In this document: positions 17,657 to 23,049 of the stretch, one piece after another
Layout: the number at the start of each line of letters is the position of its first letter
Position numbering within the stretch: the stretch's first letter is position 1
Notes under the pieces: model-generated
The model's input: the letters and a program-made list of their open reading frames with translations, nothing else
The model's database searches: none
What the model was told of the DNA's origin: nothing
Assembly (NCBI GenBank): GCA_027730505.1
Contig: JAQCGT010000006.1
Coordinates: 1-47,111 of the forward strand
Source: Actinomycetota bacterium
GTDB lineage: Bacteria > Actinomycetota > Acidimicrobiia > Acidimicrobiales > Ilumatobacteraceae
Length of the DNA: 47,111 nucleotides
Direction of reading: 5' to 3'
Position numbers and translations under genes: made by a program

Positions 17657-17917
17657 GTGAGGTCCCGTCTCGTCATCACCGCTGCCCTCGTCGCTGTCGG
17701 CGCGCTCGGCACCGTCGGCTGTTCGAGTCCGCCACCGGCGCGCCTCGTGGCGCTTGAGATGATCGACACGCTCGATCAGCCTGAGTCGGTGCGTGATTGC
17801 ATGACCGCCAAGGTCGAGGCGATGACCGAACTCGAGGTCGAAGCGATCGCCGCGAGCGAGGATCAGTTGACCCTCGACGGCTTCAGCGCCGATCTCGCCT
17901 CCTGCATCGGCGGCTGA
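17657..17917 (+). CDS. Small predicted lipoprotein
   Basis: A protein of about 86 residues with an N-terminal signal peptide (RSRLVITAALVAVGALGTVG followed by C), whose lipobox suggests lipid anchoring outside the membrane. The mature part is short and acidic, with two cysteines (VRDCMTAKVEAM and ASCIGG) that could form a disulfide. No family is recognised. The GTG at 17657 follows the udgB stop by two bases; a TTG at 17651 is the alternative. Confidence 0.65.
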   Translation: MRSRLVITAALVAVGALGTVGCSSPPPARLVALEMIDTLDQPESVRDCMTAKVEAMTELEVEAIAASEDQLTLDGFSADLASCIGG

Positions 17918-17929
17918 TCAGCAGCGCTG

Positions 17930-19105
17930 TCAGCTCGCCGGCGTGGGCGCCGGAGCGGCTGCCTTCTTCTTTGGCGGTGGCACACCGATCGCTGGGTTGG
18001 GATCAGCGTCCTTCGGCCAACGGCGCCGGCTCACGATCGAGAGCATGCGCAACAGCTTCATCGCCTTCTCATCTTCTTGAGCCGGCCGGGCGATGATCGA
18101 ACCGTCGGCGATCATCCGGTTGATCACCTCGACACCGAGGTCGGTGCGCACGATGGTGAGCGTCCAGTCGTTGTCCTCGCCGATGCCACCGGTCGACACG
18201 TCGGCGTGCTCAGCAGCGAAGTCTGGGCAATGCATACAGCCTTTGCGAGTCCACTGATGGCATTCCTTGAGGTCGACTTCGTGATAGGAGCCGTCTTTCA
18301 TCCAGATCTGGAAGACGCCCTTGATGTTCATCTTCACCATGTCCTGCTTCGCGAGGCCGTACTTGGCCTCGAACAGTTCGGTGAAGATCGCGTCGTCGAA
18401 GGTCTTTGAGCACAGCAACCCGATGTTGAACTGGAACGGCTTGGAGACCTTGCCTGCTTTGCGATCCCACATGGTGGGTGGTGACGAGGTCTGACATCCC
18501 ATGCCGACGAGGGCGAGCCGTTGGTGCCCGGCCTCTTTGGCCTCACGGAGAGCGAGCGGATTCGCACAGTAGGTGTATCGACTGCCGGCTGTGGCGAGGA
18601 TCTCATCTCTGGTGGTGACGACTGCCGGCTTTGCCTTCCAGTGATCGTCGTCTTCCACGCCAGAGACCAACGCAGCATCGATGTAGTCGTGTTCGCGCAA
18701 CCAGATGAGCATTGCCGACACCAGTCCACCGTCTTGGCCCATCTTGTGAACCATCTCGTCGCTGGCGCGGGTGAGAAGCAGTTGCTGCCAGATCCCTGAC
18801 ATCTCGTCTGGTTCACGATGTCGGCCGAACAGGTGCATGTCAGCTGACGGCTCCCAGGCGCGGAACCGCGGGCAGGCCCTGGTGCACGTTGTGCAGCCCT
18901 TCTCGCCATGCACGCAGTTGTCCGGACCGAGTTCTTCTTCGAGGTGGAACGGGATGTACTTGCCCTCCTCGTGCTCGTAGCCGATCACGTCGTGTGGGCA
19001 GGTGACCACGCACCCGGCGCACCCGGTGCACAGGCCGGTGTCGATCACCTCGGCCTTCAATTCTTTCCACTGTGCGGTCCAGCGTGCGGGGGCGTCCGTC
19101 GTCAT
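17930..19105 (-). CDS. Coenzyme F420 hydrogenase/dehydrogenase beta-subunit (FrhB) family iron-sulfur flavoprotein
   Basis: Protein of 391 residues. The N-terminus has a ferredoxin-like domain with the full cluster motif CTGCAGCVVTCP (C26, C29, C32, C36) and a second partial set, CVHGEKGCTTCTRACP. The body matches the FrhB family: DGGLVSAMLIWLREHDYIDA, ALVGMGCQ, NIGLLCSKTF, KGCMHCPDFAAEHADVSTGG. Members bind FAD and move electrons between F420 and iron-sulfur partners. The tail is alanine/proline-rich. It starts 27 bases after the second P-II stop on the same strand, so it may belong to the ammonium operon, an unusual position. The electron partner is unknown. Confidence 0.88.
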   Translation of the reverse strand: MTTDAPARWTAQWKELKAEVIDTGLCTGCAGCVVTCPHDVIGYEHEEGKYIPFHLEEELGPDNCVHGEKGCTTCTRACPRFRAWEPSADMHLFGRHREPDEMSGIWQQLLLTRASDEMVHKMGQDGGLVSAMLIWLREHDYIDAALVSGVEDDDHWKAKPAVVTTRDEILATAGSRYTYCANPLALREAKEAGHQRLALVGMGCQTSSPPTMWDRKAGKVSKPFQFNIGLLCSKTFDDAIFTELFEAKYGLAKQDMVKMNIKGVFQIWMKDGSYHEVDLKECHQWTRKGCMHCPDFAAEHADVSTGGIGEDNDWTLTIVRTDLGVEVINRMIADGSIIARPAQEDEKAMKLLRMLSIVSRRRWPKDADPNPAIGVPPPKKKAAAPAPTPAS

Positions 19106-19132
19106 GGGACGAACGCTAGGCGATGGCGGACC

Positions 19133-19567
<435 letters not shown>

Positions 19568-19586
19568 TCAGGCGGACGTTGGCGCG

Positions 19587-21324
<1,738 letters not shown>

Positions 21325-21326
21325 GG

Positions 21327-21335
21327 GACCTCCTC
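21327..21335 (-). promoter_or_regulatory. Strong ribosome-binding site of amtB
   Basis: GAGGAGGTC lies on the minus strand two bases before the amtB GTG at 21324. It is the most consensus-like Shine-Dalgarno site I saw in the window and fixes the GTG start. Confidence 0.75.
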
Positions 21336-21414
21336 AGTTGTGGATGGGTAGGGATTCATGTCCGCAACCGAGGCCACGCTGCCCCTCGGACATCTCGAAC
21401 GGTAGGGGGCCTGT

Positions 21415-21452
21415 TTTTCGCCGGTGTCGCCCGAATGTTTCCAGTTCGTGAC
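21415..21452 (-). promoter_or_regulatory. GlnR-type binding site with four phased boxes upstream of amtB
   Basis: On the minus strand the boxes read GTCAC, GAAAC, GCGAC and GAAAA, each separated by exactly six bases, so each begins 11 bases after the last. The GlnR consensus in Streptomyces and relatives is GTnAC-n6-GAAAC, usually doubled. The first pair fits perfectly; the second pair has one mismatch per box. A TACCGT -10-like element follows (21399-21404 on the plus strand, reversed), so the site is placed for activation of amtB-glnK. Confidence 0.7.
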
Positions 21453-21479
21453 CAGTCGGTGCCGCCCGGTGTGAGCTGA

Positions 21480-21707
21480 TCAGGCGACGAGCATCCAGCC
21501 ACGACGGCGGACGGTCACGATGCGCTCGGCCCCGACGGCTCGCCTCACACCGACGATGAGCGAGTCGCATCGCCGGTCGCTGAGATCGGCGATGGCGGCG
21601 GACCGAGCCAACTCAGACCGGCTTACGACCCGCCCTTGGCGTTCGAGCAGAGCGCGATAGACGGCGAGTTCTTGAGGACTCAGTTCGGCGGGGGTAGCCG
21701 TTTTCAT
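21480..21707 (-). CDS. Stand-alone OmpR-type winged-helix DNA-binding protein
   Basis: Only 75 residues, consisting almost wholly of a C-terminal response-regulator-type winged helix: LSPQELAVYRALLERQGRVV, SRSELARSAAI, CDSLIVGVRRAVG, RIVTVRRRGWMLV. There is no receiver domain and no room for one upstream, since the acyl-CoA dehydrogenase diverges at 21814. Similar winged helices occur in GlnR and at the end of some uroporphyrinogen-III synthases. The gene ends 27 bases before the GlnR-like site of amtB, on the same strand. A GTG at 21734 would add nine residues. Its role is unproven; a nitrogen regulator is one possibility. Confidence 0.75.
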   Translation of the reverse strand: MKTATPAELSPQELAVYRALLERQGRVVSRSELARSAAIADLSDRRCDSLIVGVRRAVGAERIVTVRRRGWMLVA

Positions 21708-21767
21708 ACGGAAAGGTTCCCGCAGCCAGATCACACCTGTGTCGCAGCGATGTGAACGCTCTGTTTC

Positions 21768-21788
21768 ACCGGTCGGTTACCGATCGGT
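21768..21788. promoter_or_regulatory. Two tandem ACCG-TCGGT half-palindromes upstream of the acyl-CoA dehydrogenase
   Basis: ACCGGTCGGT (21768-21777) and the perfect palindrome ACCGATCGGT (21779-21788) are spaced 11 bases start to start, one helical turn, and end 25 bases before the dehydrogenase ATG. This looks like a repressor operator. No regulator is identified. Confidence 0.4.
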
Positions 21789-21813
21789 AGCGATCGTCGG
21801 GCAGAATCAGCAC

Positions 21814-23049
21814 ATGGATTTGACCTACCCCGTTGAAGCAGAAGAATTCCGCACCGAAATCCGTGCCTGGCTGGAACAGAACCTGCCCACTGGCTGGTTC
21901 GAACAGGGCTTCGAGATGAGCGAACCGGAGCGGGCCGAGTTCAACCGCACCTGGCCTGCGAAGTTGTTCTCAGGTGGCTGGATCTGCGCCACTTGGCCCA
22001 CTGAGTACGGCGGCAAGGGTCTCAGCACGATGCAGGGTGTCGTGCTCGCCGAGGAGTTCGCCCGTGCACGCGCACCCATGCGCGGTGACTTCTTCGGTGA
22101 CACGCTCGTCGGCCCCACGTTGTTGCAGTGGGGAACCGAGGAGCAGAAGAAGGAGTTCCTCCCGGGCATCTTGAAGGGTGAGACCCGTTGGTGCCAGGGC
22201 TTCTCCGAGCCCAACTCCGGCTCCGACCTCGCCAGCCTCAAGACCACGGCGGTGCTCGACGGCGACCAGTGGGTCATCAACGGCCAGAAGGTCTGGACCA
22301 CCCAGGGTCACCACGCCGACTATTGCTTCTTGCTGACCCGTACCGATGCCGATGCGCCCAAGCACGCCGGCATCTCGTATCTGCTCGTGCCGATGCGTCA
22401 GCCCGGCGTCGAGGTTCGGGGCATCACCCAGCCCGACGGCACGGCTGAGTTCTGCGAGGTGTTCTTCACCGACGCTAAGTGCCCGAAGGACAATGTGGTC
22501 GGCGGTGTCAACAACGGTTGGAAGGTCGCCAACTCGACGCTGGCGTTCGAGCGCGGTCAGTCAGCGACCACTGGCTACCGGCGTTTCGAGGAGGAGTACC
22601 GCCTGTTGGTGGAGACGGCCACGGCGAACGGCCGCATTGCGGAATCGACCATCCGGCAGCGCCTCATGGAGTTCTACACCAAGATTCAGATTCTTAAGAT
22701 CAATGGTCTACGCAACCTGTCGGCCACACTCACCGGCAGCCGTGACATGGGAACGATCGCCCTCGGAGCCACCAACAAGATGTTTTGGTCCGAGATGCAC
22801 AAGGCTGCAATGGAACTGGCCCTTGACATCTTCGGTGCTGATTCCATGCTCGTCGACACCGGCCCCGAGGCCGGGTCGTGGCCCGGTGCCCTGCGCGAGC
22901 GGCGGCGCTCGGGCTACCCGGTGAGCCCGATGATGTCGGCCTTCTTCTTCTCTCGCTCGGAGACGATCTGGGGTGGAAGCAGCCAGATCCAGCGCAACAT
23001 CGTTGGCGAGCGAGTGCTCGGACTGCCCAAGGAGCCCCGCCCGGGCTGA
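21814..23049 (+). CDS. Acyl-CoA dehydrogenase family protein
   Basis: Flavoenzyme of 411 residues that introduces the alpha-beta double bond into an acyl-CoA and passes electrons to ETF. The N-terminal helical domain starts MDLTYPVEAEEFRTEIRAWL; the middle domain has CQGFSEPNSGSDLASLKTTA and INGQKVWTTQG; the C-terminal domain contains TLAFERGQSATTGY and ends SETIWGGSSQIQRNIVGERV. The chain-length and side-chain preference cannot be told. The ATG at 21814 was chosen over an upstream start at 21739, because it gives the standard N-terminus and leaves the operator-like repeats in the promoter. Confidence 0.92.
   Translation: MDLTYPVEAEEFRTEIRAWLEQNLPTGWFEQGFEMSEPERAEFNRTWPAKLFSGGWICATWPTEYGGKGLSTMQGVVLAEEFARARAPMRGDFFGDTLVGPTLLQWGTEEQKKEFLPGILKGETRWCQGFSEPNSGSDLASLKTTAVLDGDQWVINGQKVWTTQGHHADYCFLLTRTDADAPKHAGISYLLVPMRQPGVEVRGITQPDGTAEFCEVFFTDAKCPKDNVVGGVNNGWKVANSTLAFERGQSATTGYRRFEEEYRLLVETATANGRIAESTIRQRLMEFYTKIQILKINGLRNLSATLTGSRDMGTIALGATNKMFWSEMHKAAMELALDIFGADSMLVDTGPEAGSWPGALRERRRSGYPVSPMMSAFFFSRSETIWGGSSQIQRNIVGERVLGLPKEPRPG

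Follow-up and report, generated by a model that had tools for sequence, protein, structure and literature searches.

A putative GlnR operator and a conserved leader hairpin upstream of amtB in the Ilumatobacteraceae

The region upstream of amtB in the stretch of DNA analysed here (the window: 47,111 nucleotides of contig JAQCGT010000006.1, from an actinomycetote of the family Ilumatobacteraceae) is probably the promoter and leader of a GlnR-activated ammonium-uptake operon, in which a hairpin suggests a further, ANTAR-like layer of control. Along the minus strand, a small winged-helix gene is followed by four phased boxes of the GlnR type, a -10-like hexamer, the hairpin, a Shine-Dalgarno-like sequence and amtB (Table 1); an acyl-CoA dehydrogenase gene lies on the plus strand, divergent from the genes on the amtB side. 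In the model that we favour, GlnR would bind the four 11-bp-phased boxes under nitrogen limitation, cover the -35 region and recruit RNA polymerase to a -10 element fixed 10 bp downstream, so that amtB and glnK are activated. The transcript would start at or just before the hairpin with its C[AGCGTG]G hexaloop, an ANTAR protein, probably PdtaR-like, would read the loop and tune amtB after initiation, and the stand-alone winged-helix protein would join the same circuit. Extended to the family, amtB would be under double control: GlnR would start transcription and a PdtaR-type ANTAR protein would read a 5' hexaloop, mostly in a single-loop form and in one genus in a dual form present in several species, with the hairpin missing where the ANTAR protein is missing and an NnaR-like domain, encoded behind its own phased array, completing the circuit. 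We hold this family-wide picture tentatively, at somewhat below even confidence.

Table 1. Features of the amtB region in the window, with positions on the forward strand
Feature	Positions	Strand	Details
Second 11-bp phased array	21741..21767	-	GAAAC-n6-TTCAC-n6-GCGAC; 33 bp before the winged-helix gene
Stand-alone OmpR-type winged-helix protein, 75 aa	21480..21707	-	Directly 5' of the boxes; PF00486, E 1.5e-8
Four phased GlnR-type boxes	21415..21452	-	GTCAC-n6-GAAAC-n6-GCGAC-n6-GAAAA; read from the sequence and scored
-10-like hexamer	21399..21404	-	TACCGT; 10 nt past the fourth box
Hairpin at the start of the predicted amtB leader RNA	21358..21393	-	Stem ATGTCCG/CGGACAT, inner stem GGGGC/GCCTC
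Hexaloop of the hairpin	21375..21380	-	AGCGTG, closed by C-G, with A1 and G4; agrees with the ANTAR-target consensus in passages of PMC7496416 and PMC3369931
Shine-Dalgarno-like sequence of amtB	21329..21335	-	GAGGAGG; sequence
amtB, ammonium transporter, 458 aa	19948..21324	-	GTG start at 21324; PF00909, E 5e-125; TIGR00836 over cut-off
glnK, P-II protein	19587..19925	-	PF00543, E 8.2e-28 on 19587-19907; start read by eye from the ORF
Second glnK-type P-II protein	19133..19471	-	PF00543, E 8.2e-30 on 19133-19468; start read by eye from the ORF
FrhB-like iron-sulfur protein, 3' of both glnK genes	17930..19105	-	PF04432, E 9.2e-29

The phased array upstream of amtB and its likely reader

The boxes lie on the amtB strand, as four 5-mers separated by spacers of exactly six bases each (GAACTG, ATTCGG and ACCGGC, reading from 21452 to 21415), which gives an 11-bp phase and two pairs of 5-bp a and b boxes, the layout of a GlnR operator. 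The initial annotation had described this arrangement, and had placed it about 90-130 bases before amtB; the last box indeed ends 90 bp from the GTG. The first pair is, as claimed there, a perfect gTnAC-n6-GaAAc, and the sole exact GTNACN6GAAAC in the window. By itself, a single a-b pair is weak evidence, because 0.39 are expected in the window and at least one occurs in 33 of 100 shuffled windows; genome-wide, its 11 matches barely exceed the 6 found with a reversed-pattern control, and no nitrogen gene was seen among the ORFs listed around the pair matches at L013. The full array scores 16 of 18 consensus bases, the best score in the window. None of 5000 dinucleotide-shuffled versions of the 156-nt region 5' of amtB attained it, and one of 40 shuffled versions of the whole window did. 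A looser four-box pattern (at most one mismatch) was found twice in the whole genome and never with the control. Besides the amtB site, the only such match is at G000:C188:738-797 (L051), an 11-bp-phased run of GTCAC, ATCAC, GAAAC and GAAAC.

An array scoring at least 13 precedes amtB or glnK-amtB in 66 of the 74 family genomes read, a non-random set made up of the top 30 matches to amtB, the top 30 to the winged-helix protein and chosen regions. Forty-five of these arrays score at least 15, and some are doubtful (six score 13, among them those of G021 and G055); no array scoring at least 13 was found in the other eight genomes (G002, G008, G010, G011, G014, G029, G068 and G075). At the amtB loci of the family, 27 of 30 have an array scoring at least 13 with a first pair of at least 7. 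The b1 box is GAAAC in 58/66 arrays, b2 starts with GAAA in 65/66 (GAAAC in 31, GAAAT in 27 and GAAAA in 7), and GCGAC, the a2 box of the window, is the commonest form at its position (33/66). Since the box forms recur in this way across the arrays of 66 relatives, the second pair is not a decayed copy, and its earlier description as the weaker one does not stand. Downstream, a TANNNT hexamer starts exactly 10 nt past the last box in 64 of the 66 leaders, and in none at offsets 30-32 or 40-42. A -35 element at the usual spacer length would land on the end of a2 and the spacer that follows; a consensus scan of the amtB upstream region found no sigma-70 hexamer pair, as expected of an activator-dependent promoter in which the activator replaces the -35. 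A chance resemblance, for which one could argue from the single pair that about one shuffled window in three should contain, is refuted by this conservation and by the fixed spacing to the -10, in addition to the upstream-region shuffles, and we give it practically no credence.

GlnR itself, which the initial annotation had proposed to look for, is encoded in the same genome by a 252-aa frame (G000:C54) whose three best PDB matches (8hig, 8hih and 8hml) are titled as GlnR of Saccharopolyspora erythraea and M. tuberculosis. It adjoins glnII (NF041605 above cut-off) and a second glutamine synthetase gene, in the order glnII, second glutamine synthetase gene, GlnR. Among 61 family genomes, 57 have GlnR once (E <= 1e-40); the four with no match at this threshold (G023, G031, G052 and G057) all carry the array, a combination that gaps in the assemblies or a different reader of the boxes might explain. 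The same pattern had also been expected near glnA and other nitrogen genes, and this held in part: phased arrays recur before glnII-glnA-glnR, in variant form, and the exact a-b-a-b pattern, within one mismatch, was found in the whole genome at no other gene identified as a nitrogen gene. The glnII array is TTCAC-n6-TTCAC-n6-GACAC-n6-GAAAC in the genome of the window, and TTCAC-n6-TTCAC-n6-GCAAC-n6-GAAAC and the like, instead of exact a-b-a-b, in its relatives. Two phased boxes are present in 19 of 20 glnII regions of relatives, all but L268, in which the gene is incomplete, and a third in phase in 17, as counted by a pattern scan over the whole stretches, with the arrays standing, by eye, just 5' of glnII. 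Published GlnR motifs also vary (gTnAc-n6-GaAAc, GTnAC-n6-GTnAC and t/gTAAC-n6-Gc/aAAC in passages of PMC10704036). Neither of the two outcomes that the initial annotation had named as refuting was thus obtained. The presence of GlnR and the recurrence of phased boxes upstream of nitrogen genes support the array as a putative GlnR operator of amtB, from which GlnR would activate the gene under nitrogen limitation, by analogy with Streptomyces as described in parts of PMC5826061.

GlnR is one of eight PF00486 places in the genome, the others being six full-length regulators and the small winged-helix protein, and another OmpR-family member (of the MtrA or PhoP/RegX3 type, or the stand-alone protein) might be the main reader of the boxes, alone or in competition with GlnR. 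Repeats of TTCAC, which resemble PHO boxes, occur in the arrays of both glnII and the winged-helix gene. Since PhoP and GlnR are also competitors at the glnA, glnII and amtB genes of Streptomyces (passages of PMC10704036), a second regulator is possible at these TTCAC-containing arrays. The GlnR and MtrA motifs are nearly identical according to parts of PMC6277429, and the four genomes that keep an array with no GlnR match would also fit a different reader. The b boxes before amtB nevertheless hold the GlnR form across the family, amtB is a known GlnR target, and the winged-helix protein has no match in some of the genomes that keep the array (e.g. G012, G016 and G034). We regard a main reader or competitor other than GlnR as unlikely, and GlnR as the probable reader at amtB.

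Some variation in gene content around the operon was also observed. In a close relative, L129, whose amtB is 95% identical, a second amtB lies between the two glnK genes (L129:7263-8447); none is present in the corresponding interval of the window (19471-19587), and the lineage of the window may have lost amtB2 and kept both P-II genes. A homologue of the FrhB-like gene also lies 3' of amtB in several relatives. Several genera have a gene of ~900 aa between the winged-helix gene and amtB; at L087:4564-7263 a sodium/hydrogen-exchanger protein with a C-terminal ACT domain is encoded, possibly an amino-acid-sensing ion antiporter beside ammonium uptake.

The leader hairpin as a candidate ANTAR target

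In the family leaders, 3' of the array, the stem of the hairpin varies and the pattern of the loop is fixed: a closing C-G, six bases, A first and G fourth. This pattern, C[A..G..]G, occurs at +20 to +62 past the array in 56 of 66 leaders, whereas each of the 15 other combinations of letters at these two positions is present in 5-33 of 66. Two occurrences were judged to be due to chance and dropped: that of G033 has a three-pair stem that lies after the likely ATG (offset 53 vs 41), and the array of G055 is itself doubtful. The remaining hexaloops, in 54/66 leaders, come from 19 genera and comprise 17 loop sequences, an invariance of which part is selection, the pattern having been formed by eye on the first leaders; the other letter combinations and the shuffled flanks described below serve as controls for it. 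The hexaloop is lacking in 12/66, including five of six g25 leaders, two of six from g2, G021 and G055. No second hexaloop was found in the leader of the window, a consensus scan of 21250-21800 detected no terminator-like site, and no Rfam family came near its gathering score over 17800-22400, so a family name from that source was rejected for the hairpin. We also discarded CCCTA, which follows the hairpin, as a conserved repeat, as it occurs in only 24/66 leaders.

The flanks of the hexaloop pair more stably than shuffled flanks, with a negative mean z in 18 of 19 genera and a Stouffer z of -6.9, a value that is not a strict probability because the genera are related. This measure was used instead of RNAalifold because it tolerates shifted stems; with an ungapped alignment, RNAalifold recovered the top two pairs only, the lower stem shifting register between genera. 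Individually, 23 of the 54 stems reach p<0.05. At least three contiguous pairs lie below the loop in 34, two in 7 and the closing pair only in 13, and the stems are weak in some genera (e.g. g18 and g10). Several glnK-first leaders (L148, L154, L157 and L159), which have no ANTAR-like hexaloop, carry a different, recurrent hairpin of the form GTTGC-AA(T/A)A-GCAAC or close to it, with another short stem after it.

Beyond the family, 24 further amtB loci at the order, class and phylum levels were surveyed. Of two same-order genomes, one (L287, the same as L313) has C[AGCGTG]G 19 nt past a weak array (score 12); the class-level L289 has a strong array and no hexaloop, and L295 (array score 13) has a C[AAGGCC]G in which just the closing pair is present. 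Ten phylum-level stretches have an array scoring at least 13, and four of them (L318, L319, L322 and L327) contain C[A..G..]G; its stem has at least three pairs in L319 and L322.

Natural contrasts within the family bear on the identity of the factor that might read the loop. In genus g11 (15 genomes), the hexaloop is present in five of the six ANTAR-positive genomes with an array (G098, G120, G265, G267 and G268) and was not found in the sixth, G087, whereas the two ANTAR-negative genomes with an array, G033 and G109, have no such hairpin in the leader, the C[AAGGCA]G of G033 lying inside the coding region. Elsewhere in this genus, no array was found in the ANTAR-negative G264 or the ANTAR-positive G010 and G075, and G049, G063, G263 and G266 had no amtB match at the threshold. 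The contrast may represent a single loss, that is, one evolutionary event. Genus g22 provides the second contrast: a pair of C[A..G..]G hexaloops is present in four of its seven leaders, and the linker measures 13 nt in G081, 17 in G041, 17 in G092 and 30 in G056, the first three being canonical dual spacings. Both hairpins are not always kept in global folds, and second three-pair hexaloops do arise by chance: at least two were counted in 17/66 genomes over longer stretches, which ran to 40 nt past the start and extended into the glnK coding region in the case of g2 and g25.

ANTAR proteins are encoded in 115 of 121 family genomes. The genome of the window has four PF03861 (ANTAR) places, one of which is a 192-aa receiver-ANTAR protein with 1s8n, presumably Rv1626 (PdtaR), as its best PDB match (E 6e-64). 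At G000:C39:167-1250 (L106), two ANTAR frames stand in tandem on the minus strand, with a third on the plus strand at a contig end; eight other g1 genomes searched had one ANTAR match each. In Geobacter, nitrogen genes including glnK-amtB are reportedly under ANTAR control. Known ANTAR-target RNAs consist of two stem-loops with hexaloops that have A1 and G4, joined by a linker of 2-25 nt (passages of PMC8164766). Selection with NasR identified the terminal C:G pair, A1 and G4 as determinants, and about 12 uM of NasR is needed for binding to a single hairpin (parts of PMC7496416); for EutV, altering A1, G4 or the closing pairs, or losing one stem, lowers induction, and binding is lost without the second stem-loop (parts of PMC3369931). 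The loop of the window has the C:G closing pair, A1 and G4, in a genome with ANTAR proteins. Because it is one hexaloop and the published definition is dual, an arrangement with a linker of 2-25 nt that is present in G081, G041 and G092, the hairpin of the window falls outside the ANTAR-target family as published, although it may work like a member.

Judged on the loop and its distribution, the prospect that an ANTAR protein, probably a PdtaR-like receiver-ANTAR regulator, recognises the loop and tunes amtB after initiation seems to us a little short of even, an estimate that allows for the 20 of 54 hexaloops whose stems do not reach three contiguous pairs. The hairpin could equally be real and have another role, as a stabiliser of the 5' end or a site for a different RNA-binding protein, and the chance of this we put at nearly one half. 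The single hairpin of the window, its lack of a terminator-like site, the weak stems of g18 and g10, and the ANTAR-positive genomes without the loop (in g2 and g25, and G021, G055 and G087) would all fit such a role. A plain stabiliser, however, needs no fixed loop, and here the C, A1, G4 and G are fixed while the stems vary; the paired hexaloops of four g22 leaders and the lack of the hairpin in the two ANTAR-less g11 leaders likewise speak for an ANTAR protein. Should the hairpin prove to be a target of this kind, a regulator found in nearly all family genomes would gain an assayable site in the mRNA of an ammonium transporter.

The stand-alone winged-helix gene

The gene directly 5' of the boxes encodes a protein with PF00486, over the cut-off, as its sole Pfam domain. 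Its AlphaFold2 model is a winged helix (pLDDT 90), and the top six chains matched to the model (Z 10.2-10.5, rmsd 1.6-3.1 A over 68-71 residues) are PhoP, YycF, OmpR, PhoB, DrrB and one AfsR; both sequence and fold place it with the OmpR/PhoB winged-helix DNA-binding domains. A PDB sequence search gave no match at E <= 0.01. The best NCBIfam match, with an E of 8.9e-10 and below cut-off, is to the C-terminus of NF005568, a uroporphyrinogen-III synthase with a winged-helix domain that we take to be of the NnaR type.

Relatives of the protein occur in 62 of 121 family genomes. The gene is in the same stretch as amtB in 50 of these, the other 12 not being resolved, and in 45 of the 50 it lies upstream of amtB on the same strand within 4 kb (17 at less than 500 bp and 28 at 1.5-4 kb); it was otherwise found once farther upstream, once downstream and three times on the opposite strand. 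Its dN/dS is 0.04-0.11 across four pairs of relatives. A phased array precedes the gene at 22 of 30 loci, compared with 0.005 expected from shuffles, by a pattern that was written after 15 of the loci had been viewed and that matches 14 of those 15 and 8 of the remaining 15. Among the named relatives, the best 32 (L129-L160) are labelled as Ilumatobacteraceae, Ilumatobacter, Acidimicrobiaceae, Acidimicrobiales or unplaced Actinomycetota MAGs, with the exception of L152, labelled Acidobacteria; the rest of the best 80 are weaker (31-41% identical) and nearly all from proteobacteria. Judged by these labels, the window most likely comes from the Ilumatobacteraceae, in the class Acidimicrobiia. 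In a sister family, a longer winged-helix protein (L313:745-1827), the N-terminal part of which has no Pfam match, is encoded at the same place upstream of amtB and is 38% identical to the 75-aa protein over 68 residues; the stand-alone form may thus be a reduced one. The gene and its own phased array probably belong to the same circuit as amtB. The gene is conserved and connects an NnaR-like domain with ammonium uptake in a way that can be tested.

Comparison with known systems

A GlnR-type operator at amtB is by itself ordinary for Actinomycetota. Our literature searches found no GlnR study with Acidimicrobiia or Ilumatobacter, and none with Acidimicrobiia among the matches listed for this class together with amtB and nitrogen regulation, so the site extends a well-known actinobacterial operator to a class for which we found no GlnR study. 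The amtB operator of Streptomyces coelicolor, as described in parts of PMC5826061, likewise has 5-bp a and b boxes upstream, with an atypical a2 at -35. It comprises three pairs (a3-b3, a1-b1 and a2-b2), whereas two are present here, where GCGAC is the commonest a2 and the -10 is fixed 10 nt downstream.

What goes beyond the GlnR site is above all the leader with its ANTAR-like hairpin, together with the small winged-helix gene; each of the two can be tested. NnaR, a HemD-winged-helix partner of GlnR (passages of PMC6277429), resembles the 75-aa protein in that the latter is nearest to the C-terminus of NF005568 and has its gene behind a phased array. The 75-aa protein differs in having no HemD domain, PF00486 being its only domain, so that it is not an NnaR in the full sense of HemD domain plus winged helix, and in being a stand-alone DNA-binding domain linked to amtB.

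For ANTAR proteins in Acidimicrobiia, our literature searches found no described target, and the main text of PMC8164766 contains neither 'Acidimicrob' nor 'ammonium'. The leader of the window resembles the targets of EutV, NasR and the actinobacterial sets (parts of PMC3369931, PMC7496416 and PMC8164766) in its C-G-closed hexaloop with A1 and G4, in the presence of an ANTAR protein in the genome and in its nitrogen-linked gene. It differs from them in having one hexaloop instead of two, with no terminator-like site, and in the position of the hairpin, at the predicted start of the transcript behind a GlnR-type array. If an ANTAR protein does read this loop, the single- and double-loop forms of the leader that occur in nature would offer a test of the rule that such proteins require two hexaloops.
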